Shown here one piece after another: positions 13,817 through 45,424 of a stretch of DNA of 64,000 nt. The position numbers and the translations under genes were made by a program. Below the pieces are notes generated by a model that saw only the letters and a list, made by a program, of their open reading frames with translations, was not told where the DNA came from and searched no databases. The stretch's first letter is position 1, and each line of letters opens with the position of its first letter. The DNA is taken from assembly GCF_002923755.1 (NCBI RefSeq), contig NZ_PGFZ01000001.1, positions 590,146 to 654,145 of the forward strand, given 5' to 3'. The stretch is from Methylovulum psychrotolerans. GTDB lineage: Bacteria > Pseudomonadota > Gammaproteobacteria > Methylococcales > Methylomonadaceae.

Positions 13817-13817
13817 A

Positions 13818-15356
13818 TTAAAGCCATAATGTTGTGCGTTTGCCTGTATCGAGCACATGCACGGTGCAGACCAGACACGGGTCGTGTGAGCGGATAATAT
13901 GGCCTATTTCCACCAAATCCTCAGGGTCATCGACCGCCAGACCGAGCAAACTGCTCTCCCAATGCCCATGCCGGCCTTCGCTATCCTTAGGCGATGCGTT
14001 CCAAGCGGTTGGCGTGACGACTTGATAACGGCTAATAACGCCGTCGGTGATTTGCACCCAATGACCCAATGCCCCGCGTGCCGCCGTTACCAAACCAAAG
14101 CCTTCGCCGTCCGGAATATCTTTTTCCGGGGGGTTAATGATATGCGGGGCGTTAGGGTGCGCCGCTAATTGGTGCAGGGTTTCGCGCATTTTCAGCAACA
14201 GCCGGGCGGTACGGTGTAAGCGGGCGAATTGGCGTAGCCAAGCATTGCCGCCTTCGGCCTGATACAGCGAACAGATCAATGCCTCACCATTAATGAGGGC
14301 ATCGGCCAAGGGGCCGGTTTGCACGACTTTATTTTGATAACGGGGAGCCTTACACCAAGTATAGCGGTCAGAATGGGGTTGATAATCAGGAATGGTTTGC
14401 CCCTGAAACGGATGGCGGCCGCCTGCATAAGGTTGAAACCAAGAATAGCGCACATGTTCGGTAATCTCGGCTTGCTCAAACGCTTCGATAATACCCGTAT
14501 CGCCATTAAGGAAACCGGCCTTGAACAAGCGTTGGTGCTGTGGCGGGAAAGTGCCGGCAGCGTCCGGGTCGTCATAAGCGCCATAACTGAGCATGTGCGG
14601 CGTTCCGAACCCTACGCGGTGTAGGCCGATATCGCGGCTCATTTGGGTGAACAGTCCGATGGCGCTGTCTGCATGGCTGCCTTTTGCGGTTAGCCAAGCG
14701 AAGAAGTCATCAGCCGATTGCAACGCCAACCAAGTTTCTAGGTCGCCCCCCAATACCATCTGCTCAAAGCCACGGGTCAGCTTATTGACAATAGACAGGC
14801 TATCAATAATGTGGCGCTGGCTTGCCGGGGTCGTTACCCCTCCGGGTAACATATAAGAGGAGTGTGGCCATTGGCCGCCAAATAGGGCGATTATCTCGAC
14901 GATATGGCGCGAATATTCGAGGGCGCCGCAGTGCGCCCAGCCTTTGAACGGCAGAAAAGCCGCCCGGGCTTTTTCATAAAGCGGTTTATGGCGATATTTG
15001 GGATGACAAAAGTCCGCCGTGAAGAACAGGAAGGATTGCCGCAAATCGCTTTGCACCGTTTCGGCCATCAAGCACAGGTTGCGGATACGGACTGCGGCCG
15101 GCGGTACGGGGATACGCCCGACTTGTTCTAGTGCCAGCACCGCCGCATTTAATTGCGCCGTGCCGCAGATGCCGCAGATGCGTGGCGTAATCACCAGAGC
15201 ATCTTTCGGATTCCGATCCACAAGAATTTGCTCGAACCCCCTATAGAGGGAACCGATACAGCGGGCATCGACGATTTTGCCGTCTTCCAATTCCAACTGG
15301 AAATCCAAATCGCCTTCAACGCGGTTCAGATCAATTTGGATGGTTCTTCTGGACAT
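13818..15356 (-). CDS. [NiFe] hydrogenase large subunit, group-2-like
   Basis: 512 residues carrying the NiFe active site. The L1 motif RICGICG has C61 and C64. The L2 motif DPCLVCTVH has C494, C497 and H500, followed by a 12-residue tail that the adjacent protease could remove. No Tat signal is seen, consistent with a cytoplasmic enzyme. It lies two bases downstream of the small subunit. Overall style (RNRVEGDLD-type start, short L1) is that of group 2 uptake or sensory enzymes such as HupL/HoxC. I place it provisionally with the putative sensory group 2c because of the linked GGDEF-EAL gene. Confidence 0.93.
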   Translation of the reverse strand: MSRRTIQIDLNRVEGDLDFQLELEDGKIVDARCIGSLYRGFEQILVDRNPKDALVITPRICGICGTAQLNAAVLALEQVGRIPVPPAAVRIRNLCLMAETVQSDLRQSFLFFTADFCHPKYRHKPLYEKARAAFLPFKGWAHCGALEYSRHIVEIIALFGGQWPHSSYMLPGGVTTPASQRHIIDSLSIVNKLTRGFEQMVLGGDLETWLALQSADDFFAWLTAKGSHADSAIGLFTQMSRDIGLHRVGFGTPHMLSYGAYDDPDAAGTFPPQHQRLFKAGFLNGDTGIIEAFEQAEITEHVRYSWFQPYAGGRHPFQGQTIPDYQPHSDRYTWCKAPRYQNKVVQTGPLADALINGEALICSLYQAEGGNAWLRQFARLHRTARLLLKMRETLHQLAAHPNAPHIINPPEKDIPDGEGFGLVTAARGALGHWVQITDGVISRYQVVTPTAWNASPKDSEGRHGHWESSLLGLAVDDPEDLVEIGHIIRSHDPCLVCTVHVLDTGKRTTLWL

Positions 15357-15358
15357 AA

Positions 15359-16300
15359 CTAAGGATCCATCGTCTTGTTCAGCACCCGTTCGGGCGCGGC
15401 TTCATGGGCCAAGCTTTTGTAAGCCATATAATTAGCCCGTTCTACGCCCATCGGCAAATGTACCGGAATGCTGCCAATTTTTTCGGTATCGAACAAATCA
15501 TGATCCAACGGAAAGTCAGGAGAAGTGCAGCCGAAACACGGCACACCCGCGCGGGTCTTGCTGCTGCGGCCATTCCACAGTTCGGTATTGCAAATCGCCA
15601 TCGTGACCGGCCCTTGGCAACCCAGATTAAAAAACATGCAGGCTTTTCCGCCGAATGCGGCGTCTTCCACATCGTATTCATGGTATTCGTTACGCGTACA
15701 GCCCTGATGCACCGTGGTATTGAAAAAGACTTTAGGACGGTTAATATGGTCCAGTTCCACCGGAAGCCCCATTGCCAGCATGGCCAGCGTTTTGGTCATG
15801 GCATTGGGATGGGCGGGGCAACCTGAGATATTAATGACCGGCAAACCCTTACGCGAACGCCAATCTACCGACAATAAGCCGCCGGGGGATTTTTTGTCGA
15901 ACTGTAAACCGAGGCAGTCAGTAGGATTGGGCGGGGCGGAATGGACACCGCCATAAGCCGCACAAGTGCCTAATGCCACAACATATTCCGCTTTTTCGGC
16001 CAGTTCCCTAACCAAACTCATTTTTGAACGCCCACGATAAGGATCGTACATGCCCGAACCATCCGGGCCGGTGATGATACTGCCTTCAATACATAAAATA
16101 TCGAGGGTTTGTTGTCCTGCGAGAATGGCTTCGATTAATGTTTCCAGCCGCCCCGTCGGTTCCATAGATAAAGAAGGTTGCCAGAGCATTTGTATACCGT
16201 ATTCATCCACAAGTTCTTCCACTGACGGGCTGTCGGCACAAAGAATCGACATAGTATCGCCACCGCAGGAACCCGTTTGCAGCCAAAGTAACGTTGTCAT
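15359..16300 (-). CDS. [NiFe] hydrogenase small subunit, group-2-like
   Basis: 313 residues from ATG at 16300, which has AAGGAG six bases upstream; longer in-frame starts run through that ribosome site. There is no twin-arginine signal peptide, so it is cytoplasmic. Cluster ligands visible: proximal C12 followed by D15 instead of the usual second cysteine (SCGGDTM), then Cys in LGTCAAYGG and SGCPAHP. The distal and medial sets lie in HQGC, KAC, LGCQGP and VPCFGC. The first gene of a four-gene operon running leftward. An Asp near the proximal cluster is known from some O2-tolerant enzymes, so oxygen tolerance is plausible but inferred. Confidence 0.93.
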   Translation of the reverse strand: MTTLLWLQTGSCGGDTMSILCADSPSVEELVDEYGIQMLWQPSLSMEPTGRLETLIEAILAGQQTLDILCIEGSIITGPDGSGMYDPYRGRSKMSLVRELAEKAEYVVALGTCAAYGGVHSAPPNPTDCLGLQFDKKSPGGLLSVDWRSRKGLPVINISGCPAHPNAMTKTLAMLAMGLPVELDHINRPKVFFNTTVHQGCTRNEYHEYDVEDAAFGGKACMFFNLGCQGPVTMAICNTELWNGRSSKTRAGVPCFGCTSPDFPLDHDLFDTEKIGSIPVHLPMGVERANYMAYKSLAHEAAPERVLNKTMDP

Positions 16301-16490
16301 AACCATCTCCTTGAGACTATTCGCCAGAAATACTACCCGCCAAGCCTTTTTAGCCTTAACAACATTAAAAACCATGCTTGTGGCCGATACATTACAAGCT
16401 TAAGCAAGTATTAGTATTTTAACCGCTATCGAAATTATCTATAAGATATTATTAATTTTCAAGTTTTTTCGGCAATAAGCTTAAACACAT

Positions 16491-17147
16491 TTACAAAAAA
16501 TCGCCTGACCCTTCTTTCGCCGCACAGACAGCAACCCATTGCCCTAACGTAGCAAAAGTAGCGGTTGCCGAAGCCAATACGGCATTGATCTCCGCCTCTG
16601 GTTGGGAGTCAAAACATTGCGTCATTAAAACGGCAAAACCGCGCCATTGCGTTTCTAAATCCGCCCCATAACAATGGTAAAAATTCAATGCTGAGCTAAC
16701 ATCATCACCTAATTGTTGGCTTAAATGCCGGCCTATCACCCGACCGCCCAATAACGAGCCTTCTAAGACATACAATGCACCCATTTTTTGGGCAAACGTT
16801 GTCAAATCGGGTAATGCTTCGCAGATAGGCAAGTTGCCAGCACTATTAATGCCCAAAACGTTTAGATCTTGTTGCAACAAATGGGTTTTGCGGCGATAGA
16901 GCAATTGGCTATGCAGTTCGGTGGGTAAATTATCAAATAACAGAGGTTCTATGCCAGAAAAGTAACCGTAAAAATAGCTTAACAACTGGGCATATTCGTT
17001 TAAACGATAATCTTTGGCAAATAAGCGTTTAAAGCAAGGTGCTTTTTCTAGGTGCTGATGGGCGGCTTGCGTGTCATTTTTTAGGCGCACCATAATATTC
17101 GGGTGATTATTATCGGCGGGAAGGCTTATCGAAGGTTGCGTTTGCAT
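16491..17147 (-). CDS. Biliverdin-producing heme oxygenase
   Basis: 218 residues of the HemO/BphO/HO fold, opening heme to biliverdin with O2 and reduced ferredoxin. The proximal heme ligand is in the T-x3-H-x3-E pattern (T26, H30, E34). The distal helix has the glycine-rich block VLEGSLLGGRVIGRHL typical of bacterial heme oxygenases. It is divergent from the ferredoxin gene (244-bp gap). It supplies biliverdin for the bilin reductase at 26270; no bacteriophytochrome gene is visible nearby. It lies 191 bp upstream of the hydrogenase operon on the same strand, probably as a separate unit. Confidence 0.92.
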   Translation of the reverse strand: MQTQPSISLPADNNHPNIMVRLKNDTQAAHQHLEKAPCFKRLFAKDYRLNEYAQLLSYFYGYFSGIEPLLFDNLPTELHSQLLYRRKTHLLQQDLNVLGINSAGNLPICEALPDLTTFAQKMGALYVLEGSLLGGRVIGRHLSQQLGDDVSSALNFYHCYGADLETQWRGFAVLMTQCFDSQPEAEINAVLASATATFATLGQWVAVCAAKEGSGDFL

Positions 17148-17391
17148 AATTTTACTGTATAAAAATATAAAGACTGCTGGTTAAGGCGCATTTTAAGGGA
17201 TAACATAACCCATAGTTTAGCCTTTAATAGCCCGCATTTGCCAGACCTTGCCAAATTTAAGGGCGTTCAGGTTTTGCAATTCAACAAAAATGCCGCCCCC
17301 CCCGTCTATATTTTAGCCCCGCCTTTAGGTCACCGGCATCCCTATCACCTTGTTAATTATTATTTTAAGCAATACACATAGAGAGGACATA

Positions 17392-17874
17392 ATGGAAGCA
17401 ATAAAAGTAAGGTTTGAAGCCCAAGGCTTGCGCACCGTCGAGGTCATGCCCGAAACCCATTTATTGGACGTACTGCTCGAACGTCATGTTGAAGTGAAGC
17501 AGTTATGTAGCAGACGCGGCCTCTGCGCGACCTGCCATGTTTATGTGACCAAACATCCTGAACAGTTAAGCCCCCCTACGCCCAGAGAAAGCCTGACGTT
17601 AGCGGTATTAACGGGCGCCCAAGCTAATAGCCGCCTTTCTTGCCAAGCCAAAGTCTTGGGTGAAGGGGTAGAAGTGGCGTTACCGGACGGCTTATATATC
17701 GATTCTTTCGAGTCTTTAGAACAGCTAATTGGCCAGCGCACCCAAGTACCCATATTACACCCCGTTACAGGCGATATACTGGTTCCTGCCAATAAAATCA
17801 TTATCCGCTCGATTATTGAAAAATTACAACATTTAAATGTCGATATAGAAAAAGTCAAAAACGGTGACTTATAA
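17392..17874 (+). CDS. [2Fe-2S] ferredoxin, adrenodoxin/plant-type fold
   Basis: 160 residues from the ATG at 17392 (GAGAGG upstream). The N-terminal 100 residues form a beta-grasp ferredoxin with ligands in CSRRGLCATC and a downstream Cys in SRLSCQAKV. A further 55-residue extension follows. Likely electron donor for the divergently encoded heme oxygenase and for the ferredoxin-dependent bilin reductase at 26270; this role is inferred from the neighbourhood. The 3' end (codons for IEKVKN) is part of an 18-bp sequence repeated exactly at 20613-20630. Confidence 0.9.
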   Translation: MEAIKVRFEAQGLRTVEVMPETHLLDVLLERHVEVKQLCSRRGLCATCHVYVTKHPEQLSPPTPRESLTLAVLTGAQANSRLSCQAKVLGEGVEVALPDGLYIDSFESLEQLIGQRTQVPILHPVTGDILVPANKIIIRSIIEKLQHLNVDIEKVKNGDL

Positions 17875-17903
17875 CAACCACCAACGGCACTTGCGTCCGG
17901 GCT

Positions 17904-17927
17904 ACCGTGTAACCGTGTAACCGTGTA
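17904..17927. repeat. Three tandem 8-bp units
   Basis: ACCGTGTA repeated three times without error, shortly after the ferredoxin gene. Beyond it, CTAAAGGCCT (17962-17971) and its exact inverse (18006-18015) form a 10-bp inverted repeat with a 34-base loop, possibly a terminator stem. Confidence 0.8.
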
Positions 17928-18057
17928 ATAGGTACGCGCGGTTAGACCCATCACGCAAAAACTAAAGGCCTATTGCGCCCGCAACTGCTTATACGGCGGA
18001 GCACAAGGCCTTTAGCCGTTTATTGTGTAAAACCGACAGATAACTGACTTATGTCCC

Positions 18058-18465
18058 TTATAACTTCGCCGTTTTCTCATTTAACAATTCCTGCAATTGG
18101 TTGACCCTTCTGACCAATTCATTAATGCGCAATTTTTCTTCGGCGGCGGCCAAAAGCGCTATTTGCTGATGCTCGTTCAGGGCATCAAACACTTCGACAA
18201 TTTTCACGGCCTTATACGGGTCGGCGGCATTCGGACGCGGCTCATCTTCGGTTTTTACCGCAGTCAAAACAAATTTAACATCAAAACCATGCCGAGCCAA
18301 TTGCGCCAAGTGATGCGCAGGCATCTTTACGCCATTTTCCCAAGAAATGACCGACCGTGATGTGACGCTACATAATAAGGCGACATCATACTGGGACAGC
18401 CCCAATCTTAACCTTTCTGTACGAAAGCGGGCGGCCACTTCTTTTATGATGCTTTCTTTCTGCAT
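18058..18465 (-). CDS. XRE-family repressor-like protein, copy A
   Basis: 135 residues. An N-terminal helix-turn-helix of the Cro/C1 type (about 10-65, RLRLGLSQYDVALLCSVTSR and SWENGVKMP) is followed by a linker and a C-terminal leucine-heptad region (EKLRINELVRRVNQLQELL) that probably dimerises. It is nearly identical to the protein at 27335-27763. Palindromes GAAG-N4-CTTC in front of this gene and of the neighbouring gp16-like gene are plausible operators. The pair looks like a phage-derived immunity switch. Confidence 0.85.
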   Translation of the reverse strand: MQKESIIKEVAARFRTERLRLGLSQYDVALLCSVTSRSVISWENGVKMPAHHLAQLARHGFDVKFVLTAVKTEDEPRPNAADPYKAVKIVEVFDALNEHQQIALLAAAEEKLRINELVRRVNQLQELLNEKTAKL

Positions 18466-18506
18466 TTATCTTTATTAACATATGAAATATATTTCTTTAA
18501 ATTCCC

Positions 18507-18518
18507 GAAGAATTCTTC
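18507..18518. promoter_or_regulatory. Possible operator before XRE copy A
   Basis: GAAGAATTCTTC, a perfect 12-bp palindrome about 40 bases upstream of the copy A start. It shares the GAAG-N4-CTTC arms with 18745-18756 and 28351-28362. Confidence 0.5.
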
Positions 18519-18744
18519 ACTTTAGCACCGCTTAATAAAAAACTACCCCTATCGAATTGTCTTAGGCATAAAACCAATAAAAACGCTGGGCAGTGTATTA
18601 ACCAGATAACAATACTTCTCAACCTATCCGAGCATAGCCTCCCCATAACATTTCTCCAGCTTATCCTCAGCCGTTTCGACGTTAACTCCAGATAGTACCT
18701 TCCGACCTCAGGTAATGTTTTCTTCGTATTTTTTGTTGACATGT

Positions 18745-18756
18745 GAAGTATTCTTC
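18745..18756. promoter_or_regulatory. Possible operator before the gp16 pseudogene
   Basis: GAAGTATTCTTC just downstream of a TTGACA (18736-18741), the same arrangement as at 28342-28370 in the intact copy. Confidence 0.5.
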
Positions 18757-18794
18757 TTTAAAGTTCAATGCAAATATCCATTGGCCTAGAACGC

Positions 18795-19250
18795 ATGAAA
18801 TTAAAAACTCCAGACAAAGCGAAAGAGATGTTTATAAAAGGGTATCAGCTTTACTGAATAAGCCCGTGTACATGGCATACCCTGCCATGTTGTCAGCGAC
18901 TTATTGCATGGTAAATAGTGGTGCGAAAGCCTTTTAATATCAATTTTGCAGAACCCATGCCCTATAGGCTCACCGAAAGAATATAGGAAGCACCGTTCAT
19001 TCCGGCATACCTTCAGGGACATAAAGGGATTTGTTCTCACGAGCGCCGGAGCCGTAGACCGCGTAAGCGAATCTGCATAGTGGCCATAGATGGCTAACCC
19101 GTACGGGAGCCTATCTTTTGGCATTGGGTGTGCCCTTTATATATGGTTTAACGAATGTTAAAAAACACATAAAGGCCTACTTTTAGTTCATTGGTGTAGG
19201 CGAGACCAATCATACAAGACCGCCGTATTATTAGGATCAAAAATGGCAAT
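18795..19250 (+). pseudogene. Broken BcepMu gp16-like gene
   Basis: Degenerate copy of the gene at 28410-28694. The start (MKLKTPDKAKEMF) is clear. Two single-base deletions then shift the frame and a stop follows. The DNA match continues to about 18914, is interrupted by roughly 270 unrelated bases, and resumes near 19187-19250 with the segment encoding the GQSHKAAVLLG-like part. Not functional. Confidence 0.82.
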
Positions 19251-20353
19251 TAGCCAGAGGGGATTTTGCCCTCCTGCCAAAGCGGCGTTGCGTAAACGCT
19301 TACCATTATTATCTTATAACTACCTTGCAATCATACCGGGCGAACGCTTTTTATCCATATTGTCATATACCAGTTACAGCAAAAATCAAGCCCAATAACA
19401 GAAATGAATATGGCGACCATAAGCTTCTGGGTTATTTTTACCCACAAGAAACAGCATACCGGTGAACGACCAAACGGCGCAGAGCTCCATAAAACCGCCC
19501 ACTATAGTTTCATCAAAATTAACGAAGAAACAGATCAATATTTGCCTTGGTTTCTTTAGGCTCCCTATATGGCCTAAGCCTATCTGAAAACGGGCAACCC
19601 AAAGACCGTTACCGCCTTTAGAAAGAAAGCCCTGAAGCGTTTAGGCGCGATAAGCAAATAATACAATACCATAAAAATCATATACTTGCACGTTATTTAT
19701 AAAAAACAAGTTAAGTACAAATAAATCAAAAAATAATTATCAACAGAATAGCGTTAGATGGTAAAAAACTTACCCATCTACATGAAAAAAATGGCTCAAT
19801 ATGGGGTTGTTGGCTGTTTGACAATAACCGTCTTTACCGCATTTTCTGACATTAGGGACAAACTCAAGAAAGCTCAGATATAGCGGTACAACGTTTGTGA
19901 TATGCCCCGATAAGAGGGGCTCCAGCTAGGAACGCAACAGCAACCAGAAGCCTTCCATGGTGTTCGGATGGGCTTCGCAAAACCTGTCGCCGCATTTTGA
20001 GAGGGGCAGTCCTATAAATTTTAGTGGCTTTTAAAAATGGACTTATGATTATTTTCTCATACTCTATGTACTGAAGGGATCAGGACGGCGAATAATTTGA
20101 CGATCCGACGGGCTACTTATTTGTCGAAAAGATGATGGCAACAACAGTGACCTGTCAATTGCAGGGCTGCAACCGTCTCGATGACATCACCGCGATGTCC
20201 GCGTATTTAACAAATGAGGCTGCCTGCCAAAAAAAGGAAAAGTTGATGCCGTCAAATTAGCGGCTTAAATAAGGGTGGGCATGAACGGTTATAAAAAAAT
20301 TGCAGCAAATTTAAAAATGGACTTATCGTCATTTTCGTCATATTATACATGAG

Positions 20354-20432
20354 CTGATGTTACGCAGTAGCGTGCTTTATCCCCGTTTGCCGCGCCGAGC
20401 ATAGCAGGTTTTGTCGGGATCAGCCCAAAGGG
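20354..20432 (+). repeat. Partial copy of the 44251 MITE-like element
   Basis: About 80 bases, starting CTGATGTTACGCAGTAGCGT, match the left end of the element at 44251-44567 with a few substitutions. The right end is absent. Confidence 0.75.
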
Positions 20433-20612
20433 CATAAATACCCAACCCGTCCCTCCGGTATGGAGGATGAATTTATGTGAAACTCAAAACCCAGATAGAA
20501 CCTTGATGTTAAAGCAGCCTGTCTGGCAATGTGATTTTTTATGTGCAGAGAAAATTTACACAATTTAACTATTGGCAGAGTTTTCGCTCTCTCTGTCGAT
20601 ACCTAACTTTAC

Positions 20613-20630
20613 TATAGAAAAAGTCAAAAA
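20613..20630 (+). repeat. 18-bp copy of the ferredoxin gene end
   Basis: TATAGAAAAAGTCAAAAA is identical to 17844-17861. In both places it is read in the frame IEKVKN and a TAA stop follows a few codons later. Confidence 0.7.
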
Positions 20631-20699
20631 TACTGGTCTATAAAAAAGCTCAACGACCCTTGCTTTCGGCAGGGTATTACATTGTAAACGGAGGAGTTT

Positions 20700-21377
20700 A
20701 TGGCGATTGACGTAACCGATGGCGGTTTTCAGGGGTATCACAATTATTATTATCCTGACGAATTTTTTAAAGCAGATCCAGAAAAAGGGGCCATTTATCT
20801 GAATGATGGTGAGCGGGCGGCGAAAGTCAGCGAATCGTTCATTAACGGCCTGCATTTAGGGATTGAAGAAGAAATCGGCGATTCTGCCGGACTCTTGATG
20901 TATAAAACCGGCCACCAATGGGCGTTGTTGGACATGAAACGCTTTAACAACCGGATGCGCCATGAATATGGCGGCGGTAAGTTGGATATTTGGCAAATGA
21001 ACAAGCAGTTTGTTATGGAAACATGGTGGTGGCCGTTGACCATCCAAGGCTTTGGCGGTTGGCGTTTGACTATGGGCGACAAGGATAACGAGGCTTTACA
21101 AAGTAAAGGCCTGACCGTCATTGAGTTACGCAACTCGGCGGTGGCCCAGTCGATGGCTTTAGCGGGCAAGCCGGTTTGCCACATGTACGCTGGCCTTTTT
21201 GCCGGGGTGTTTTCCTTTTATGACCGCGAAGAACGCGGCTGTATCGAAATCCAATGCTACGCCATGGGCAATGATGTCTGTAAGTTTTTGGTCGGTTCGC
21301 AAAAACTGATGAACGCGGCGGAGTTTTGGTCTAAAGAAGGCGCTACGGCGACGGAAATACTCGAAAAACTCGGCTAA
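20700..21377 (+). CDS. V4R-domain protein, bilin cluster
   Basis: 225 residues with a V4R (vinyl-4-reductase-like) small-molecule-binding fold in the C-terminal half, ending in RGCIEIQCYAMGNDVCKFLVG, whose Cys and His-type positions are typical of V4R. The N-terminal part (HNYYYPDEFFKADPEKGAIYLNDG) introduces the fold. A GGAGG ribosome site precedes the ATG. First gene of the run of nine same-strand genes up to the CDGSH gene. Two V4R proteins are part of described BBAG clusters, where a role in bilin or tetrapyrrole handling is suspected. The exact ligand here is unknown. Confidence 0.88.
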   Translation: MAIDVTDGGFQGYHNYYYPDEFFKADPEKGAIYLNDGERAAKVSESFINGLHLGIEEEIGDSAGLLMYKTGHQWALLDMKRFNNRMRHEYGGGKLDIWQMNKQFVMETWWWPLTIQGFGGWRLTMGDKDNEALQSKGLTVIELRNSAVAQSMALAGKPVCHMYAGLFAGVFSFYDREERGCIEIQCYAMGNDVCKFLVGSQKLMNAAEFWSKEGATATEILEKLG

Positions 21378-21390
21378 TAAGGCAACTATT

Positions 21391-22095
21391 ATGGTAGACA
21401 CCTACACGCCTAGGCAACTGGACTATTTCAAAAGTACGCTGGTTATTTTAAATGCAGCCTTGACGGACACGCCTTTAGCTGCCGACCCGTTGCCATTGGC
21501 GGCGGCAGAGGCATTGGCTCCCCCGCCTGCCCCAACAATACCAGAGCCGGCAGCAGCACTAACGTTGGCCGAAGCAGCCCCGGTAATGGCTTTAGCCAGT
21601 AGCGCTGTTGATAGTGAACCGTTGCCCGAAGCCATTACGACGGTGGTAGGCACACCGACGTGTGCGGTCTTTTTCCAAGCCTTACCTTGGCAAGCCGATC
21701 CGATGGCGCCGATGATGGCGGCCAGTGCGGAGCCTAGCGTTGCCGCCGTGCTGACATTACCTGTAGAGCCGCTGCCCGAACCGATTAAACCCGTAGAAGG
21801 TAAGCCTAGCCAGGCATTTTTTCGGGCGTTACCTTGGCAAGGCACAACAGTATCTGTCAGCTTTACTGATGCCGCCTTACCACCTGCGCAAATGCCCAAA
21901 GGCAGCAAGGCGTTTTTCCGAACCCTACCTTGGCAAGGCCATAGTGCAGCTCCCGGCATAAACAGCGGCGACTTTGCCGGCATTGCCGCTATCGCTACAC
22001 AAACCGCCCTGCAAGCGGCACAGCGGAGCGTCGGCAAGCAAGGTATACCAGCGGCAAGTTTTTTTAAAGCCTTGCCTTGGTCGAGCCGCGTTTAA
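21391..22095 (+). CDS. Disordered protein with four FFxxLPW motifs
   Basis: 234 residues, no known domain. A short helical N-terminus (about 1-25) is followed by a long Ala/Pro-rich, probably disordered chain. The chain carries four copies of a motif: FFQALPWQ (94-101), FFRALPWQG (143-151), FFRTLPWQG (175-183) and FFKALPWSS (224-232), the last at the very C-terminus. Spacing is 49, 32 and 49 residues. Conserved short motifs on a flexible chain suggest a scaffold that binds up to four copies of a partner. The best candidates are the V4R proteins or the globin encoded on either side, 13 and about 30 bases away. I know of no described family. Confidence 0.85.
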   Translation: MVDTYTPRQLDYFKSTLVILNAALTDTPLAADPLPLAAAEALAPPPAPTIPEPAAALTLAEAAPVMALASSAVDSEPLPEAITTVVGTPTCAVFFQALPWQADPMAPMMAASAEPSVAAVLTLPVEPLPEPIKPVEGKPSQAFFRALPWQGTTVSVSFTDAALPPAQMPKGSKAFFRTLPWQGHSAAPGINSGDFAGIAAIATQTALQAAQRSVGKQGIPAASFFKALPWSSRV

Positions 22096-22128
22096 CATCA
22101 TTTAATTTCTTTTGGTATGCGCACATTT

Positions 22129-22725
22129 ATGACTACACTTAATACCCAAACCCCTGCCAAGTTACGCGACAACCCTGAAATCGCCAAACTTTTTTTAGCT
22201 GCCGAAAGCCGCCATTTCACCGATGCCGAATTCCAGCAGTATCTGGCTTTAGTGCCTGATTATGCTGACCGGGTCGCTGCCGCACAAGAAGTCATTGCGG
22301 CGGAATTGGCCACCGTCACTACCACGATCAAACAAGTTTTTTTCTTATACCCGTTTGCCAAATACCACGAATTCCCGAAAGACAAATGTGTCCGTGATGT
22401 CAGCTATGTCAGCGTCTATGCGACCCATAGCATGTTAATGGCCGAGCCGGATTGGTTCCGTGACAAGCTGTTAATTTGGTTAAAAACCATTTTGCAAGCG
22501 TTCTCCTATCCTGCGCGAGAAGAACGCCCCGGCGTGACTCCGGCTCAAGAACTGCCCTACCCTGAAATTACCCGCCACGCCGATACCTTACCGAAAAGGC
22601 AGCGGGCCATTTACGAAACTTACGCGCGGTTGCTGATGAACTATAAGCAAGTGCTGTCGCCACAAGCCTTTGCCTTGTTGCAACCGCACTTACAGTTAGC
22701 CGTTGATATCCTTGCTTCAGAATGA
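22129..22725 (+). CDS. Phycobiliprotein-like globin (BBAG candidate)
   Basis: About 198 residues, all-helical. The central part reads DKCVRDVSYVSVYATHSML, matching the C-x-R-D bilin attachment and binding signature of phycobiliproteins (Cys84-Arg86-Asp87 region of phycocyanin). Here these are C87, R89 and D90. The following helix (WFRDKLLIWLKTILQAF) fits the phycobilisome-globin pattern. No light-harvesting genes accompany it. The heme oxygenase and bilin reductase in the same locus make it a candidate bilin biosynthesis-associated globin, a group described as paralogous to phycobiliproteins. An ATG 12 bases upstream (22117) is an alternative start; neither has a good ribosome site. Confidence 0.8.
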   Translation: MTTLNTQTPAKLRDNPEIAKLFLAAESRHFTDAEFQQYLALVPDYADRVAAAQEVIAAELATVTTTIKQVFFLYPFAKYHEFPKDKCVRDVSYVSVYATHSMLMAEPDWFRDKLLIWLKTILQAFSYPAREERPGVTPAQELPYPEITRHADTLPKRQRAIYETYARLLMNYKQVLSPQAFALLQPHLQLAVDILASE

Positions 22726-22735
22726 GTATGACACC

Positions 22736-23413
22736 ATGACGACTACCTTTGATGAAACCGGCGCGTCTGCCCAGCAGCTCAGCGCCCAAATTTTACAAAA
22801 GATTTTTAGCGAGGCAGCCCAAACCTTCGATATGAATGCCGGCACCGTGTTCGGCAATACCGATGTCCGGGTCATTTACTTGTCATCTGATATTATCCAT
22901 GCCATTTACGATGTCCTGAAATATGAGTCGGGTGATGCTTGGTCACTCATCTTAAAAAATTGCGGCGTTATTTGGGGCAAACGGGTCAGCCTGTCTTTAG
23001 AAAAAGAGCTGCAAGCCGCGACGCTGCAAAAAACCGCCGCACTCAGTGTCGACAGTTATATTGCCCTATTGGAAGCCTATTTCGCCAATCATGGTTGGGG
23101 GAAAATGCGCTTTTACTTAGATAGCGCCGAAAGCCACGGCATCGTCCGCGCCAATTTAAGCAACAGCCTATTTGCCAATACCTTAAAACACCTGGACACA
23201 CCTGTCGACTTTATGATCGCCGGTATGTTGCAAAGTATTTTTTCCGGTATCAGCGAACAAGAACTGGATTGCCTCCAAGTGTCTTATCAGTATTCGGGAG
23301 CCAATGCGAGTGAGTTCCTGATCAGCGGTGCAGAACGCATCGCCGCGTTAGGGCGATTAAAGATACATGAGCTGGATCCCAATGAAGTCTTGGCACGATT
23401 ACAAACCACCTGA
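22736..23413 (+). CDS. Second V4R-domain protein
   Basis: 225 residues from ATG at 22736, ten bases after the globin stop. The N-terminal half contains a helical segment (SGDAWSLILKNCGVIWGKRVSLSLEKE cut here to its sense: GDAW...WGKRV). The C-terminal V4R fold ends in ELDCLQVSYQYSGANASEF, with the conserved Cys where V4R proteins place it. Its 3' end overlaps the kinase gene by about 45 bases in another frame, which implies co-translation. Paralog of the protein at 20700 by domain but not close in sequence. Function is inferred as tetrapyrrole or bilin binding. Confidence 0.82.
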   Translation: MTTTFDETGASAQQLSAQILQKIFSEAAQTFDMNAGTVFGNTDVRVIYLSSDIIHAIYDVLKYESGDAWSLILKNCGVIWGKRVSLSLEKELQAATLQKTAALSVDSYIALLEAYFANHGWGKMRFYLDSAESHGIVRANLSNSLFANTLKHLDTPVDFMIAGMLQSIFSGISEQELDCLQVSYQYSGANASEFLISGAERIAALGRLKIHELDPNEVLARLQTT

Positions 23414-25109
23414 CGGTGACTTGTTTCCTGAGCGCTATAACGTCGAGGAAATGCTGAATGAGAGCGCCGCCAGTATGGTCTTACTGGGGTATGACACCCA
23501 GTCGGCCATTCAGGTGGTGATCAAATGCTTTAAGCCTTCTGCCAAAGGGGCTTATTTGCGCGAGATCAATGCCGCGTTTGATCTCAGCCACCCTAATGTG
23601 CAGCGTTGTTTGGATACCTTCCACCGCGCCGATGGTATGGCCTGTATTGTCTATGACTATCTGGAGGGCGGCAGTCTGGCGCAATTATTAGCGGAGCAAG
23701 GCAAGCTGGATCTTAAAACGACCATCCTTTGCTTGCAGGCCATCTTGACGGCTTTGGCGTATTTGCATCGGCTTAACCGCATCCATTGCGACATTAAGCC
23801 AGAAAATATCATGTTACGCCCACAAGCCCAGGGCCCGGCCGATTTTGTCCTGATTGATTTGGGGGCGGTGTGCATGTTACGCGAAGCCCAAGAGGGGCAG
23901 CATGTCCAAGGCACTCCGGCCTATATTGCCCCCGAACGGATTAAAAACCGCTTCTTTTTCAACAGCGACTTATACAGCCTAGGGGTTATCGCTTTTGAAA
24001 TGGCTTGTGGGCGGCGGCCTTTTGTCGGTACCGTTAAAGAAATAACCCAAGCCAACTTAGCGTCCGTCCCGTCTTTGAGCGGTATCCAACCGACAGGGTT
24101 ACGCGATTTTATTGACCATTTATTGGTGAAAGACCCTCAACAACGGCTACAGAGTGCCGAGGCGGCGTTAGCTTTATTAAACAAGATATTAATTTGCCCA
24201 AGCCAGTGGCAGACTGCCGTCTTAACCCCCGTTAGCATCCATGCTAGGTGGCGGTTGCAGCTAGAGGAAGAACCTGTGGCAATAGATTGCTTCCATATCA
24301 ATGGCTACCCTTTAATCGGCTTAATGTATGAGGGTTATGAAACCCTTATTGACCCTCAGCAACCGCAGCAGCCGCTATGGAGATTTTTGACCCCTTATCC
24401 GCTGCAAATTTTGGGCGTTGACAGGCTAGCCTATGCTACGCCTTCACGGGTGCAGATTGTTGAGTTGACTAAGGAAGGAGGCAGTGCGGAATGGCTGCTC
24501 AAAGAATGCCTGAACGACCTCAAAACGTGGCATGTCGGCTACAGTAAGCTCGTGTGGAGCAATACTTTTTTTTATTATTACGACAAACTTAGGCAAGAGC
24601 CTGCCGCCATTCGGTTTGGGGTAAGCAATTATTTGCTCAAGCCCCAAGTGCATATCCTCAGTGACGGCTGCATCGTCACCAGTGAGGGCCTCGCCAATAA
24701 CAAAGTGGTGTTCCGTGATCCGAATACAAAAATGTTAAGCGAATGGCAACTAGAGGGTATGGTCATTAGCTTAAGTTACGACAACCATAACATTTTAGTG
24801 GTCACACTGAACCTGAATGACAGCAATGTCTATAGCTTATGGTGCTTAGCAATACACCACCCCCCCCGTAAGCTGGTCTTAACAGGTACTATCAGCCATA
24901 TTTTTGCTATTAATGGCGTCGCTTTCTGGGTAAGTGACCGCACTGGGCTGTATTGTTGCGACACAACGTTACGTCCGCAGTCGATAAGCACTTTGCCCAG
25001 CCAAGCGCTTAAAATTGCCGCCACTTATGATCACCGCTTCATCGTTGCCCTATGTAAAGATGATCACGGACTATTTATGACTTTATTGAAAAACCGAGCC
25101 GTTTTATGA
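23367..25109 (+). CDS. Ser/Thr protein kinase with propeller-like C-terminus
   Basis: 580 residues from the first ATG. Kinase domain about 20-275: the VIK lysine (K53), the catalytic loop IHCDIKPEN (D142, N147), DLG in place of DFG (D164) and APE (188-190) are all present. The glycine-rich loop is degenerate (LNESAASMVLLG). The C-terminal 300 residues are beta-rich with repeated WD-like strands and resemble a sensor propeller. The start is uncertain: ATG at 23367 or 23382 both overlap the V4R gene, and a TTG at 23421 would reduce the overlap. It overlaps the next gene by four bases. It is encoded with a Cx5R phosphatase in the bilin operon, which suggests reversible phosphorylation of cluster proteins. 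Confidence 0.9.
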   Translation: MSWIPMKSWHDYKPPDGDLFPERYNVEEMLNESAASMVLLGYDTQSAIQVVIKCFKPSAKGAYLREINAAFDLSHPNVQRCLDTFHRADGMACIVYDYLEGGSLAQLLAEQGKLDLKTTILCLQAILTALAYLHRLNRIHCDIKPENIMLRPQAQGPADFVLIDLGAVCMLREAQEGQHVQGTPAYIAPERIKNRFFFNSDLYSLGVIAFEMACGRRPFVGTVKEITQANLASVPSLSGIQPTGLRDFIDHLLVKDPQQRLQSAEAALALLNKILICPSQWQTAVLTPVSIHARWRLQLEEEPVAIDCFHINGYPLIGLMYEGYETLIDPQQPQQPLWRFLTPYPLQILGVDRLAYATPSRVQIVELTKEGGSAEWLLKECLNDLKTWHVGYSKLVWSNTFFYYYDKLRQEPAAIRFGVSNYLLKPQVHILSDGCIVTSEGLANNKVVFRDPNTKMLSEWQLEGMVISLSYDNHNILVVTLNLNDSNVYSLWCLAIHHPPRKLVLTGTISHIFAINGVAFWVSDRTGLYCCDTTLRPQSISTLPSQALKIAATYDHRFIVALCKDDHGLFMTLLKNRAVL

Positions 25110-25750
25110 ATTTTCTTAGCGATTACTTTAACCCTCCCCGTCCCTTAACAGCCCCACGCCCGATACATTGTGTATTTTATTCACATATTTGGACAATATA
25201 TACCTTGGCGGAATTAGCGCTGGTAAACCCGAAAACCGATATAATTCTGGAACTGGCGACGGCCTCCCATTTTGCCGCCGCCCTGAATCCCTTCAACAGT
25301 CACCATGAATCCCTGCCCAGCCTGTTGCAAACCACTAAGTATCTGCACCAGCTAGGCAGCCGCTTTAAGGATATTGCCGCACCGATGGTGCTCGCCCCTG
25401 CCCAAGCCGTCGCTACGCCAACCCTGCTGGCGGCATTAGCACTGGTGCGCAGCAATCCCAGTCCGGTAAATAAGGCAGTGGTTATGGTACATATTAATGA
25501 TGCCGCCACCTTTGCCGCCGCCTACAGTGAAATGAGCCGATTTTCTATCCTCTGGGATATTGCCGACCAGCCGAATGCCAGTTTGCCGGCTTTAGCACAT
25601 ATTTTGGTGGCGGAAGACTGTATGGATGCGCAACGCTGGGGCGGCATTCATTTATGCCAACACCCGCACAGACGTTTACCCGACCATCCGCAACGCGAAA
25701 CCGCCTTAAAGGAATTATTGGCGGAATTTCCCCTGCTCAGTATTGCCTAA
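25106..25750 (+). CDS. Unknown protein between kinase and phosphatase
   Basis: 214 residues, coupled to the kinase gene by an ATGA overlap. I do not recognise a family. The sequence alternates hydrophobic strands and helices (CVFYSHIWTIYTLAELAL, KAVVMVHINDAATFAAAY, AHILVAEDCMD), which suggests a soluble alpha/beta fold. There is no signal peptide and no obvious metal motif apart from the HLCQHPHRR cluster near the C-terminus. Position implies a role in the bilin signalling cluster; nothing more can be said. Confidence 0.75.
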   Translation: MNFLSDYFNPPRPLTAPRPIHCVFYSHIWTIYTLAELALVNPKTDIILELATASHFAAALNPFNSHHESLPSLLQTTKYLHQLGSRFKDIAAPMVLAPAQAVATPTLLAALALVRSNPSPVNKAVVMVHINDAATFAAAYSEMSRFSILWDIADQPNASLPALAHILVAEDCMDAQRWGGIHLCQHPHRRLPDHPQRETALKELLAEFPLLSIA

Positions 25751-25754
25751 GCAA

Positions 25755-26261
25755 ATGCAAGCTTATCCACTGCTAATTTCTGGCTTACCCAACAGTGACA
25801 CCCTACAGGTTTGGCAAAAAAATGGTATCCGCTGTTTGTTAAATGTTTCGGGAATAGATATATTTGAACTTTACCCCGATTATAATCTGGCGGCTTTCAC
25901 GGTTGCCCAGTTTACTTTTGCCGACATTTTCACCCTAGCGCAGCCTGTAGAAGCAGCGGCTTTAGCCGATAGTGACCTTGGGGGCCGTTATGTGCAACTA
26001 ACCGACAGCCGCCAACGCCAGGCGCTGTTAGCGGCAGCGCAGTACTTACAGGCACAATTACAAAACCGCATACCCACCAGCGTATTTTGCCATCGCGGCC
26101 AAGGACGCTCGCCCTTGGTTGCCGCCGCCGCTTACCAGCACTTCTACCAAGAAACTGGCCAACAAGCTATTGCCCGGATACTTGCCCAACATCGCCCGGC
26201 GGTTTTTACCCACCTGAGTTTGTCGGCACTACACTGGTGCGCCTCCCAACTACCGACTTGA
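25755..26261 (+). CDS. Tyrosine/dual-specificity phosphatase-like protein
   Basis: 168 residues from ATG at 25755 (a TTG at 25743 is also possible). It has the cysteine-phosphatase P-loop VFCHRGQGRSP, a C-x5-R motif with catalytic Cys and Arg at about 112 and 118, followed by Ser. An upstream Asp in QLTDSRQ is a candidate general acid. The overall size fits the DSP/PTP-like fold. It follows the kinase and unknown gene and is immediately followed by the bilin reductase gene, whose possible TTG start overlaps its stop. Likely partner or antagonist of the kinase. Confidence 0.75.
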   Translation: MQAYPLLISGLPNSDTLQVWQKNGIRCLLNVSGIDIFELYPDYNLAAFTVAQFTFADIFTLAQPVEAAALADSDLGGRYVQLTDSRQRQALLAAAQYLQAQLQNRIPTSVFCHRGQGRSPLVAAAAYQHFYQETGQQAIARILAQHRPAVFTHLSLSALHWCASQLPT

Positions 26262-26269
26262 CCGACCTC

Positions 26270-26956
26270 ATGCGCTTCCGACCGCTCATACAACAGACGT
26301 TAAAAATACTGGCTCCCCTACCCTGTCAGGCAGTGGCTTTACCCGAAACGTTTAGCCATATTGCCAGACCCGAATTGGATGGTACATTGGTTATGGAAAC
26401 ACAGTTTTTTCGTGTTGCCGAACACGGGCAACTGCGCCTTGTCCATATCTACGCACCAAAAATCAACATTTTGACACTGTTTTTTTTCCCGGATGCCCAC
26501 TGGCAACTGCCCATTTATTGTGTGGAACTGGTCGTTTTGGGTATGCAGCCCATCGTCGCCCTATTGGATTGCGTATGCCTGATGCCGATGGCCTGTTCGC
26601 AACACGTTGCCAATTTTATGGCAGCGGCACACCATAGCCGCCCCGACCTGAACCAAGCCATTGACCCCCCCGACTGGTTTGGGGAATGCCGTTCAGGAGC
26701 GGATTTTTTTTTACGCCCTGATAACGAAGCACAAATGGCGGCAATAGGCCAAATACATCTGGACTTACTGGCCGGCCCTATGCAAGCTTTACTGGCAAAC
26801 GCCCAGACGCTCTGCCCATCGGAAACGGTACGGCACCGACAGCTTTTACAAGCCTATAAACATCACCACCATCTAAATGCCCCAGGCTTGAGGCTGATGA
26901 ACCGGAGTTTTGGCGAACAATGGACAGCCGATTATATGGCGGCACTGTTTCAATAG
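26270..26956 (+). CDS. Ferredoxin-dependent bilin reductase, PcyA-type (pre-PcyA)
   Basis: 228 residues from ATG at 26270; a TTG at 26258, overlapping the phosphatase stop, is an alternative. The family reduces biliverdin stepwise with ferredoxin electrons. It has PcyA-like landmarks: an N-terminal PLIQQTL helix, LPIYCVELVVLG matching LPMFGCDLVGG of PcyA, and a C-terminal LMNRSFGEQWTADYM matching the conserved ending of PcyA. By eye, the catalytic Glu (E43) and His (H59) are kept, but the position of the catalytic Asp in LDIL of PcyA is Asn (N66 in INIL). Together with the cluster this points to the pre-PcyA group, which makes other bilins than phycocyanobilin. Two long T runs keep the frame. 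Confidence 0.85.
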   Translation: MRFRPLIQQTLKILAPLPCQAVALPETFSHIARPELDGTLVMETQFFRVAEHGQLRLVHIYAPKINILTLFFFPDAHWQLPIYCVELVVLGMQPIVALLDCVCLMPMACSQHVANFMAAAHHSRPDLNQAIDPPDWFGECRSGADFFLRPDNEAQMAAIGQIHLDLLAGPMQALLANAQTLCPSETVRHRQLLQAYKHHHHLNAPGLRLMNRSFGEQWTADYMAALFQ

Positions 26957-27003
26957 ACAAAATGCCTAACCCACCGCTATTTCTAGTTAGTGATGAGATT
27001 TTT

Positions 27004-27243
27004 ATGACGACCAAAAAAACGTCCCACCCCGTCGATGTCGAAGCCGGGCGCAGTTATTCATGGTGCGGTTGCGGCTTAAGCCCTACCCTGCCATTATGCG
27101 ATAAAACCCACCTTTGCACTGCCCAGCCCCCAGTCAGGCCGCCGTTAACTTTTCTTGCCGAACAATCTGTGACGGTATTCTTATGCACCTGTACACGCAC
27201 AGAAAACGCGCCCTATTGTGACGGCTTCAATTGTAATCCTTAA
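27004..27243 (+). CDS. CDGSH-type iron-sulfur protein
   Basis: 79 residues from ATG at 27004. Two CDGSH half-sites: CGCGLSPTLPLCDKTH is complete (three Cys and His, with Lys in the usual Gly place). CTCTRTENAPYCDGFN has the three cysteines but Asn where the cluster-binding His should be. The family binds labile [2Fe-2S] clusters. An Fe-S protein is also reported in related BBAG gene clusters. It closes the bilin gene run, 47 bases after the reductase. An in-frame ATG at 26962 would extend it by 14 residues. Ten consecutive C follow the stop. Confidence 0.85.
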   Translation: MTTKKTSHPVDVEAGRSYSWCGCGLSPTLPLCDKTHLCTAQPPVRPPLTFLAEQSVTVFLCTCTRTENAPYCDGFNCNP

Positions 27244-27334
27244 CCCCCCCCCCGTTTACTTTTTCTATCCGGCAGACTGTTGATCAACCGCTTCTCATTG
27301 TGGCAAGTTGGCAGGTGATTAATAACGGTGCCGC

Positions 27335-27763
27335 TTATGGCTTCGGCACTTTCTCACTTAACAATTCCTGCAACTGGTTTACCCTTTTGGTTAATTCGTT
27401 AATGCGCAATTTTTCTTCGGCGGCGGCCAAAAGCTCCATTTGCTGATTCTCGTTCAGGGCATCAAACAGTTCGACAATTTTCGCGGTCTTATACGGGGGA
27501 AAAGCTACGTTTGCATTCGGGTGCGTTCCATCTTCGGTTTTTATGGCGGTCAAAACAAATTTAACATCAAAACCATGCCGCGCCAATTCCGCCAAGTGAT
27601 GCGCAGGCATCTTTACGCCGTTTTCCCAAGAAATGACCGACCGTGATGTGACGCTACATAATAAGGCGACATCATACTGGGACAGCCCCAATCTTAACCT
27701 TTCTGTACGAAAGCGGGCGGCCACTTCTTTTATGATGCTCTCTTCATTTATCTTTATTAACAT
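27335..27763 (-). CDS. XRE-family repressor-like protein, copy B
   Basis: 142 residues, nearly identical to the protein at 18058-18465 in the helix-turn-helix, the linker and the C-terminal heptad region (EKLRINELTKRVNQLQELL). It has a slightly longer N-terminus (MLIKINEESII) and a small insertion (NVAFPPYKTA). It points toward the bilin cluster and is separated by 646 bp from the intact gp16-like gene on the other strand. Likely regulates that gene through the GAAG-N4-CTTC site. Derived by segmental duplication. Confidence 0.85.
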   Translation of the reverse strand: MLIKINEESIIKEVAARFRTERLRLGLSQYDVALLCSVTSRSVISWENGVKMPAHHLAELARHGFDVKFVLTAIKTEDGTHPNANVAFPPYKTAKIVELFDALNENQQMELLAAAEEKLRINELTKRVNQLQELLSEKVPKP

Positions 27764-28341
27764 ATGAAATATTTCTTTAAACTTCCACAAAATTCTCCAC
27801 TTTACCACCGCTTAACAAGGAAACTAAACACACACTAACGCCTTAGGAAGGAAATTAATAACAATATGTAACGGCTCAACCCTTACCGCAACAACCAATA
27901 ACTCATAAAAATGACTTAAATATTAAAAAATAGTATTTTTCTGGATTTTTTAGGCTAGTTAGTTTTTTAATGGTTTTGTGCCGCCAATAAAGCAATCTAT
28001 AGGTGTTTTTATATTAGTTAAAATGCGCTATATATGGATTTTAAAGATATAAATAGTCTCATAAAATTTTAAATTATTTTATATCTATACAAAGGTAAGT
28101 TTTTATTAAAACATTAACTATTCTATTTGCCATGATTAATAAAATGCCTAGACACTTGTACTTCCAAAGAAGAGAGCGGCAAGTATTTACAAAAATACTC
28201 CATCAAAGCATTAACTAAACAACTGCACCTTTCAACCTATCCGAGTATGACTCTCCGTAACCTTTCCCCAGCCCCCTCACCCCCCGACCAACTTCAGGTA
28301 ATAACAAGCCCCCCTGTAGTGATGTTTTCTTCTTTTTTTTG
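27764..28341. other. AT-rich spacer between XRE copy B and gp16 gene
   Basis: The two ends resemble the shorter spacer of copy A (18466-18740), but roughly 300 very AT-rich bases in the middle have no counterpart there. No gene seen. Confidence 0.6.
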
Positions 28342-28370
28342 TTGACACATGAAGTATTCTTCTTTAAAGT
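28342..28370 (+). promoter_or_regulatory. Promoter with embedded operator before gp16-like gene
   Basis: TTGACA (28342-28347), 17-base spacer, TAAAGT (28365-28370). The palindrome GAAGTATTCTTC (28351-28362) fills the spacer, so a bound repressor would block RNA polymerase. The XRE protein is the obvious candidate. Confidence 0.6.
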
Positions 28371-28409
28371 TCAATATAAATATCTACCTGCCTGATCAGA
28401 CAAACACGC

Positions 28410-28694
28410 ATGAAGCTGAAGACTCCCGACGAAGTAAAAGAGATGTTTTATAAAAAGGGTATCAGCCTTACTGAATGGGCCCGTACACATGACATACCCC
28501 GCCATGTTGTCAGTGATTTGTTGCGTGGTAAGTGCATTGGTAGGCGGGGCCAATCACACAAGGCCGCAGTATTATTGGGGATAAAAGATGGTAATGAAGC
28601 AGATGGCTTGAATAGTTGGCAAAAGCTTAATAACGGAACGGATACGCACACCATCAGTGGGCGTGGTAACAGTCTGGATAAAATCAAATTCTAG
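28410..28694 (+). CDS. BcepMu gp16-like phage DNA-binding protein
   Basis: 94 residues. The core KTPDEVKEMFYKKGISLTEW, followed by a helix-turn-helix-like PRHVVSDLLRGK and the block GRRGQSHKAAVLLGIKDG, matches the small regulator family named after gp16 of phage BcepMu. Such proteins sit in early regions of Mu-like phages next to a repressor, exactly as here with the XRE gene. No transposase or structural phage gene follows, so this is an isolated module rather than a prophage. Confidence 0.78.
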   Translation: MKLKTPDEVKEMFYKKGISLTEWARTHDIPRHVVSDLLRGKCIGRRGQSHKAAVLLGIKDGNEADGLNSWQKLNNGTDTHTISGRGNSLDKIKF

Positions 28695-40824: not shown

Positions 40825-40827
40825 CAG

Positions 40828-41942: not shown

Positions 41943-42039
41943 TAGTTTTGATTTTATTGAAAATTTTATTTTAAATCAGCCACCCAGCATTTCCCCAGCT
42001 AGGCAGCCATTTTGAACACTATAAACCTGAGGGGGAAAC

Positions 42040-45422: not shown

Positions 45423-45424
45423 CC

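Follow-up and report, generated by a model that had tools for sequence, protein, structure and literature searches.

Gene content and conserved neighbours of a bilin synthesis and binding cluster in Methylovulum psychrotolerans, with a possible link to phosphorylation

The subject of this study is a gene cluster for bilin synthesis and binding in the methanotroph Methylovulum psychrotolerans. The window, meaning the whole stretch of 64,000 nt that was analysed, belongs to a genome coded G000 here, and the cluster occupies positions 16491-27243 of it. Heme oxygenase (HO, 16491-17147), which converts heme to biliverdin, is encoded on the minus strand, divergent from the remaining cluster genes, which all lie on the plus strand. 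These are a [2Fe-2S] ferredoxin of the adrenodoxin/ISC type with a C-terminal extension (17392-17874), the V4R protein V4R-A (20700-21377), an Ala/Pro-rich protein with four FFxxLPW motifs that is likely a scaffold (REP, 21391-22095), a phycobiliprotein-like globin with a CxRD motif (BBAG, 22129-22725) and a second V4R protein, V4R-B (22736-23413). They are followed by a Hanks-type Ser/Thr kinase with a C-terminal all-beta domain (KIN, 23382-25109), a cluster-specific protein (UNK, 25106-25750), a dual-specificity/tyrosine phosphatase-like protein with a C-x5-R motif (PTP, 25755-26261), a ferredoxin-dependent bilin reductase (FDBR, 26270-26956) and a CDGSH Fe-S protein with two CDGSH-type stretches (27004-27243). 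The start codons of three genes were chosen or inferred: 17392 for the ferredoxin, 26270 (most likely, instead of 26087) for the reductase, and near 27004 for the CDGSH protein.

The proteins were examined with hidden Markov model profiles. HO (Heme_oxygenase, 2.7e-10), the ferredoxin (Fer2, 5.6e-9), V4R-A (V4R, 3e-15), BBAG (Phycobilisome, 2.4e-9), KIN (Pkinase, 3.5e-41), FDBR (Fe_bilin_red, 4.8e-16) and the CDGSH protein (zf-CDGSH, 5.6e-14), a CISD3 relative, pass the Pfam cut-offs. V4R-B (V4R, E 0.014) and PTP (DSPc, E 0.019) fall below them, and the UNK protein of the window has no Pfam or NCBIfam match. REP was recognised by motif counts and by homologues in the same place. An initial annotation, made from the letters alone, had placed HO, ferredoxin, bilin reductase, a CxRD globin, two V4R proteins and a CDGSH protein within 11 kb. 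All are present, the second V4R protein by a weak profile. The globin and the reductase could have failed their family profiles and related genomes could have lacked the gene grouping; both proteins matched, and the gene order recurs in other genomes. Profile scores and recurrence elsewhere rule out the core cluster as a product of chance or misannotation.

Pre-PcyA/BBAG clusters were described by Rockwell, Martin and Lagarias in 2023 (PMC10151467). A pre-1 cluster consists of HO, an Fe-S protein, two V4R proteins and one or two globins, and POZ53545, POZ53552 and POZ53557 of M. psychrotolerans (HO, BBAG-1 and pre-1 reductase) were expressed in E. coli (PMC10151467). The pre-1/BBAG-1 cluster of M. 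psychrotolerans shares HO, Fe-S protein, two V4R proteins, CxRD globin and reductase with the window. The numbers of its globin and reductase, POZ53552 and POZ53557, are five apart, and the reductase of the window is the fifth gene after BBAG. The window locus is almost certainly this published locus and not a new example, and the annotation was right to match the gene set to pre-PcyA/BBAG clusters. The main text of PMC10151467, to which the term search was confined, concentrates on the core genes; in it the words 'phosphatase', 'CDGSH' and 'GTPase' are absent and 'kinase' occurs once, in a reference title. A search for literature on BBAG or pre-PcyA gave no further relevant paper among the matches listed. 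As far as searched, the core is already published, while the accessory module and a repeat protein shared with cyanobacteria go beyond that main text.

The order KIN-UNK-PTP-FDBR was found in 6/6 readable loci (G000, G078, G122, G140, G213 and G199). Two further loci are fragmentary: in G689 the contig ends inside KIN and a piece of UNK lies on another contig, and in G216 there is only a 63-aa piece of the reductase. The V4R-B and KIN genes share 32-38 nt in 4/5 loci measured and are 4 nt apart in the fifth. The overlap between KIN and UNK is 4 nt in 3/4 loci measured, and in the remaining one 4 nt separate them. A Ras-like GTPase with a long N-terminal region (29014-30594, plus strand; ATP_bind_1 3.2e-10, Ras 1.3e-4) is part of the recurring neighbourhood. 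Conserved order and co-occurrence support the suggestion that the kinase, the phosphatase, the unknown protein and the motif-repeat protein are members of the system. A charged 83-aa frame without known family lies between PTP and FDBR in G140 (L014 9785-10036).

The cluster is rare and patchy among the genomes searched. The FDBR profile found 7/251 genomes of the order, the window's own included, six of them over the family cut-off. At 1e-15 the V4R-A profile found 6/237 genomes of the family, 1/369 in a class sample and 1/398 in a phylum sample, the last two being the window's own genome each time. At 1e-5 the UNK profile found 7/237 family genomes, namely G199 and the six that have V4R-A; all seven also carry other cluster genes. 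In the phylum sample it found 1/398 (own genome only). Pre-1 is reported from other phyla too (PMC10151467). The G199 locus (L010 4344-10685) has open HO, KIN, UNK, PTP and FDBR genes and a V4R-B cut to 78 aa; ferredoxin, V4R-A, REP and BBAG were not found there, and a PAS/LuxR-type gene stands in their place.

The reductase belongs to the bilin reductase family by its Fe_bilin_red match, and PcyA chains were matched as well (best E 2.1e-12). Mapping onto chain 2d1e puts Val119, Thr130 and Glu147 (long-frame numbering) at PcyA Glu76, His88 and Asp105. Across six FDBR sequences the residues there are V/V/V/A/A/A, T/T/T/N/N/A and, in 6/6, E, such that none of the three PcyA residues is kept in any of them. 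We classify FDBR as pre-1 type because these catalytic PcyA residues are missing, as stated for pre-1 reductases in PMC10151467. The same paper places POZ53557 below PcyA in the reductase tree and reports the M. psychrotolerans reductase to be weakly active in E. coli, apparently forming small amounts of phytochromobilin. Pre-2/BBAG-2 and pre-3/BBAG-3 clusters likewise combine a bilin reductase with a globin. Unlike the window reductase, with V/T/E at the three positions, pre-2 and pre-3 reductases retain Asp105 (PMC10151467). The window also differs from these clusters in that no B12-binding protein was found among the cluster genes scanned.

The CxRD motif of BBAG reads KCVRD, with its cysteine at position 91 of the long frame. 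A profile built from five BBAGs matches phycocyanin and allophycocyanin chains (best E 8.9e-5) and also unrelated ATR chains (2e-4), and the CxRD position of BBAG aligns onto the CxRD of the phycocyanin and allophycocyanin chains. Arg and Asp of the motif are kept in 6/6 BBAGs. The cysteine is present in 4/6 (G000, G078, G122 and G689) and replaced by Ala in 2/6 (G213 and G140). POZ53552 BBAG-1 binds bilin but is poorly loaded and was photoinactive in every combination tried (PMC10151467). No viral relatives of BBAG were confirmed, and a plasmid search found no BBAG relative at E 0.01, though two Acaryochloris clusters described below hold distant ones.

The PF01126 heme oxygenase, the bilin reductase and the Phycobilisome-family protein are each the single profile match of their kind in the genome, and all three lie in this cluster. 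The PHY domain of phytochrome photoreceptors has 0 matches in the genome. The bacterium had been described as one without photosynthesis genes; this stands for Photo_RC, the only photosynthesis family that the search covered, which has no match in the genome. Light harvesting by phycobilisomes calls for both alpha and beta subunits as well as reaction centres, and the genome has the single Phycobilisome-family protein and no Photo_RC. Because there is one such protein and no PHY protein, BBAG is the sole candidate bilin protein visible to these profiles, GAF-type biliproteins and other HO families lying outside the search.

A bilin photoreceptor or photoprotective system that signals via the kinase would account for bilin synthesis, a CxRD globin and a kinase in one operon, in a genome that has no PHY protein. 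POZ53552, almost certainly the BBAG of the window, is nevertheless photoinactive in each combination, BBAGs are without high fluorescence (PMC10151467), and the CxRD cysteine is absent in 2/6. A weak reductase and a photoinactive, poorly loaded globin argue against a simple light sensor, and we consider a light-driven system of this kind very unlikely.

The residues Lys53, Asp142 and Asp164 of KIN, which we take to be its kinase motif residues, are invariant in the alignment. In the structural model (pLDDT 81.9) an all-beta domain with 27 strands comes after a kinase fold; the strand pattern, read without a matched structure, suggests that this domain is likely a seven-bladed propeller. No KIN relatives were found in the plasmid search at E 1e-30. 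For UNK, a weak profile match (0.02) was seen in 1/6 members only. Since the model of UNK is too weak (pLDDT 63.6) and gave no Foldseek match at E ≤0.001, we claim no fold for it. All six PTP relatives, the window's included, match DSPc (best 5e-7) and keep C-x5-R (6/6), and a sequence search of the PDB gave nothing significant for PTP.

The cluster ferredoxin is a homologue of the Fe-S protein in cyanobacterial clusters and shares 41-43% identity with four ferredoxins of Acaryochloris, two of them inside clusters and two nearby. Position 88 (long frame) is Thr or Ser in 10/10 proteins compared, and Thr83 is invariant. In the Synechocystis ferredoxin Fd5 (Slr0148), T18 and T72 may be the phosphorylation sites. 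In a tree of 18 V4R sequences the methanotroph V4R-A proteins group with Acaryochloris V4R-A (support 90/94), and the assignment of V4R-A to clade A appears fairly supported. The methanotroph V4R-B proteins stand apart from Acaryochloris V4R-B, in a region where the program warns of long branches meeting. All six V4R-B relatives, the window's included, match V4R weakly (best 0.0022), and the alignment shows V4R-B to lack the cysteines of C-x4-C and C-x7-C type that V4R-A has. Cys160, Cys181, Cys186 and Cys194 of V4R-A are kept in 6/6 aligned proteins and could serve in metal binding or redox sensing. V4R-A found nothing in a PDB sequence search and has no confirmed viral relatives. Its match to MsvR (9.2e-9) is to the V4R part of that protein and stays below the whole-protein cut-off of the MsvR model. 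Small hydrophobic molecules are ligands of V4R domains, and what the cyanobacterial V4R proteins do is described as open (PMC13174344).

These proteins could also form a redox enzyme system, in which ferredoxin, FDBR, the CDGSH protein, V4R and BBAG act on a bilin or another hydrophobic substrate and the kinase only tunes the activity. The several Fe-S proteins of the cluster and the binding of small hydrophobic molecules by V4R domains (PMC13174344) fit such a system, as does a Fer2-FAD-NAD reductase that adjoins HO in G213 (L028 2585-3607) and might pass electrons to the cluster ferredoxin. That reductase is seen beside HO in this genome only, the CDGSH protein occurs in 3/6 readable loci, and no further enzyme family was found among the cluster genes. 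We regard a redox enzyme system as unlikely.

REP homologues lie after V4R-A in the methanotroph loci. The motif [FY]Fxx[LF]PW was counted in 26 copies over six rows, the G213 row being one part only of a protein split across two contigs. FFxxLPW elsewhere in the window's genome amounts to four DNA matches on other contigs, with no motif-bearing open frame of at least 40 aa. Two plasmid clusters of Acaryochloris marina encode, in this order, V4R-A, a small protein, a weak second globin (Phycobilisome 0.0093 and 1.5e-4), V4R-B, ferredoxin and a globin. In both, F[FL]xxxxWxG occurs three times in the small protein that follows V4R-A. The small protein of pREC3 is an intact open reading frame (ORF) of 112 aa (L017 9624-9962) that does not appear in the gene table of PLSDB, a table described by its own makers as incomplete.

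Among 271 ORFs of at least 100 aa in the window and seven loci, 5 have at least two copies of FFxxxxW: three REP proteins and the two Acaryochloris proteins. A looser pattern, at three copies or more, also matches the REP of G140 and one unrelated window ORF of 1143 aa. When the pREC2 protein was shuffled, at least three loose motifs arose in 6/20,000 sequences, and a best motif score as high arose in 13/3,000. We felt that the Acaryochloris small protein is likely the counterpart of methanotroph REP, as judged from motif and position. Two features count against this link: the proline of the methanotroph motif is not kept in Acaryochloris, and the BLAST similarity is marginal and low-complexity, obtained with filters off. 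The comparison with cyanobacteria rests on one cyanobacterial strain. Judged by gene order, the place after V4R-A corresponds to that of Slr0145.

PMC10151467 ties the pre-1 cluster to slr0144-slr0149 and states that the functions of BBAGs are not yet known. The slr0144-slr0152 cluster, a photosystem II (PSII) assembly operon, resembles the window in its V4R pair, adrenodoxin-like ferredoxin (Fed5) and globin or globins. It differs in having no heme oxygenase or bilin reductase, in carrying the ferredoxin later in the order and in a repeat motif without the methanotroph proline. A V4R pair, an Fe-S protein, a globin and a repeat protein after V4R-A, taken as the marks of the slr0144-slr0149 type, are all found when the window is set against the two Acaryochloris plasmid clusters; the repeat protein is our addition to these marks, and the comparison was made through Acaryochloris and not directly with the Synechocystis genes. 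The Synechocystis cluster has the kinase SpkG, and the Acaryochloris clusters have the repeat-motif protein right after V4R-A. KIN shares the Hanks-type Ser/Thr kinase class with SpkG (Slr0152). In Synechocystis, interactions among Slr0144-Slr0149 were validated by affinity purification-mass spectrometry (AP-MS) (PMC9880817). Loss of SpkG abolishes phosphorylation of Fd5 (Slr0148), the activity of SpkG itself being unverified (PMC11863333, PMC10651672). Fed5 is Slr0148 and is encoded in an operon with V4R and allophycocyanin-like genes and, in some species, a kinase too (PMC4284462). The cyanobacterial cluster is linked to PSII assembly and thylakoids (PMC9880817, PMC9145668).

From the AP-MS data, the dependence of Fd5 phosphorylation on SpkG, the ferredoxin similarity and the kept Thr/Ser88, we infer that the cluster may encode a scaffolded ferredoxin/V4R/biliprotein complex regulated by phosphorylation. 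This is a tentative reading, held with somewhat less than even confidence, and the complex itself, the target of the kinase, the action of the phosphatase and the signal are all part of the inference. The profile matches of the core proteins, the fixed KIN-UNK-PTP-FDBR order, the gene overlaps, the company of other cluster genes that UNK keeps, the lone biliprotein candidate and the likely Acaryochloris counterpart of REP also speak for it. HO would supply biliverdin, and the pre-1 reductase would reduce it with electrons that presumably come from the cluster ferredoxin, along a pathway taken from published enzymology. BBAG would bind the resulting bilin. The FFxxLPW-repeat protein could hold ferredoxin, both V4R proteins and BBAG together, much as Slr0144-Slr0149 associate in Synechocystis. 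KIN, translationally coupled, would phosphorylate a member of the complex, most likely the ferredoxin, PTP would reverse this and the GTPase may act downstream. A chemical state (O2, heme or iron supply, reduced ferredoxin) is more probable than light as the signal, because bilin synthesis requires heme, O2 and reducing power simultaneously.

Several observations weigh against a phosphorylation-controlled complex. Covalent attachment of bilin at CxRD is not universal among BBAGs, judging by sequence, because the cysteine is Ala in 2/6. The CDGSH gene is present in 3/6 readable loci and the GTPase gene in 4/6, once on the opposite strand. In G199 the halves of the cluster may function separately, or this locus may be in decay. 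The assignment of PTP as a phosphatase is weak on profile scores. Finally, the annotated flanks of the two Acaryochloris clusters show no kinase apart from a histidine kinase upstream in one of them.

Type I methanotrophs possess intracytoplasmic membranes, and the cluster could aid the assembly or repair of membrane complexes, serving these internal membranes and methane monooxygenase as slr0144-slr0152 serves PSII. The link of the cyanobacterial cluster to PSII assembly and thylakoids (PMC9880817, PMC9145668) speaks for such a role, as does the finding that V4R proteins are missing from most of the thylakoid-less Gloeobacterales (PMC13174344). None of the cluster genes was recognised as coding for a membrane protein or for methane monooxygenase. 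Moreover, V4R-A was found in just 6/237 family genomes, whereas most methanotrophs of the family have intracytoplasmic membranes. A membrane assembly role is, in our estimate, quite unlikely.

A wider proposal can be made, which is doubtful at present. The ancestral unit passed to cyanobacteria would have been more than four core proteins: a multivalent complex under phosphorylation control, with a kinase for the ferredoxin included, in which V4R-A, V4R-B, ferredoxin and the bilin globin are tethered by a protein with aromatic-Trp repeats. It would have become the PSII assembly cluster, with repeats at the Slr0145 position and SpkG, while the methanotroph version would still read bilin and redox state. 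Should the repeat protein and the ferredoxin kinase truly be shared, both belong in the account of how cyanobacteria acquired bilin biology. The conserved kinase, phosphatase-like, UNK and repeat proteins are also concrete missing parts for the published reconstitution in E. coli, in which HO, reductase and globin were used and weak loading was obtained (PMC10151467). The host is cultured and non-photosynthetic, and would permit gene removals that photosynthesis complicates in cyanobacteria.

The surroundings of HO bear on a fourth explanation, in which the cluster breaks down heme for iron recycling and the bilin is waste held by BBAG. The genome's only PF01126 heme oxygenase lies in the cluster, and in G122 the gene next to HO codes for a Peripla_BP_2 protein of iron/cobalamin uptake type. 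Genes for TonB, ExbB and a TonB-dependent receptor occur at 39958-44250, 12.7 kb downstream of the cluster, followed by PepSY and 2OG-Fe(II) oxygenase genes to 46108. The stretch 39958-46108 is an uptake locus, perhaps for iron chelates, and makes a link to iron or heme conceivable. The receptor set is outside the cluster, and V4R, kinase, phosphatase and repeat proteins in fixed order would be needless for heme breakdown. Iron recycling is the least likely of the explanations considered, and highly improbable.

Other neighbours of HO vary; in G140 they are methyltransferases. In the window, positions 10767-16375 on the minus strand, downstream of HO on its strand, encode small and large hydrogenase subunits, a HycI-type maturation protease and a Rieske-PAS-GGDEF-EAL protein, possibly a hydrogen-linked cyclic di-GMP system. 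The hydrogenase operon was rejected as part of the cluster: tblastn found no hydrogenase subunit in eight neighbouring loci of relatives, where the neighbours of HO are of other families. No RNA family reached its gathering score in window positions 16000-31000.

The operon of the window is interrupted by two paralogous insertions bearing helix-turn-helix (HTH) genes. The first (17875-20699, with its HTH gene at 18058-18465) splits ferredoxin from V4R-A, and the second (27244-29013) lies between the CDGSH and GTPase genes. They are 88% identical over 499 nt and 76% identical over 330 nt. The gap between ferredoxin and V4R-A is 2825 nt in the window versus 18-38 nt in five relatives, and that between CDGSH and GTPase is 1770 nt versus 33 and 39 nt in two relatives. 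Each insertion is possibly a small mobile unit, and the first may uncouple native expression of the ferredoxin from the rest of the cluster. Each carries an HTH gene of XRE type, and 18597-18914 resembles a degraded copy of the HTH region at 28210-28531 (76% identity). A 93-nt repeat with 87% identity occurs at 20340-20432 and 44237-44329.

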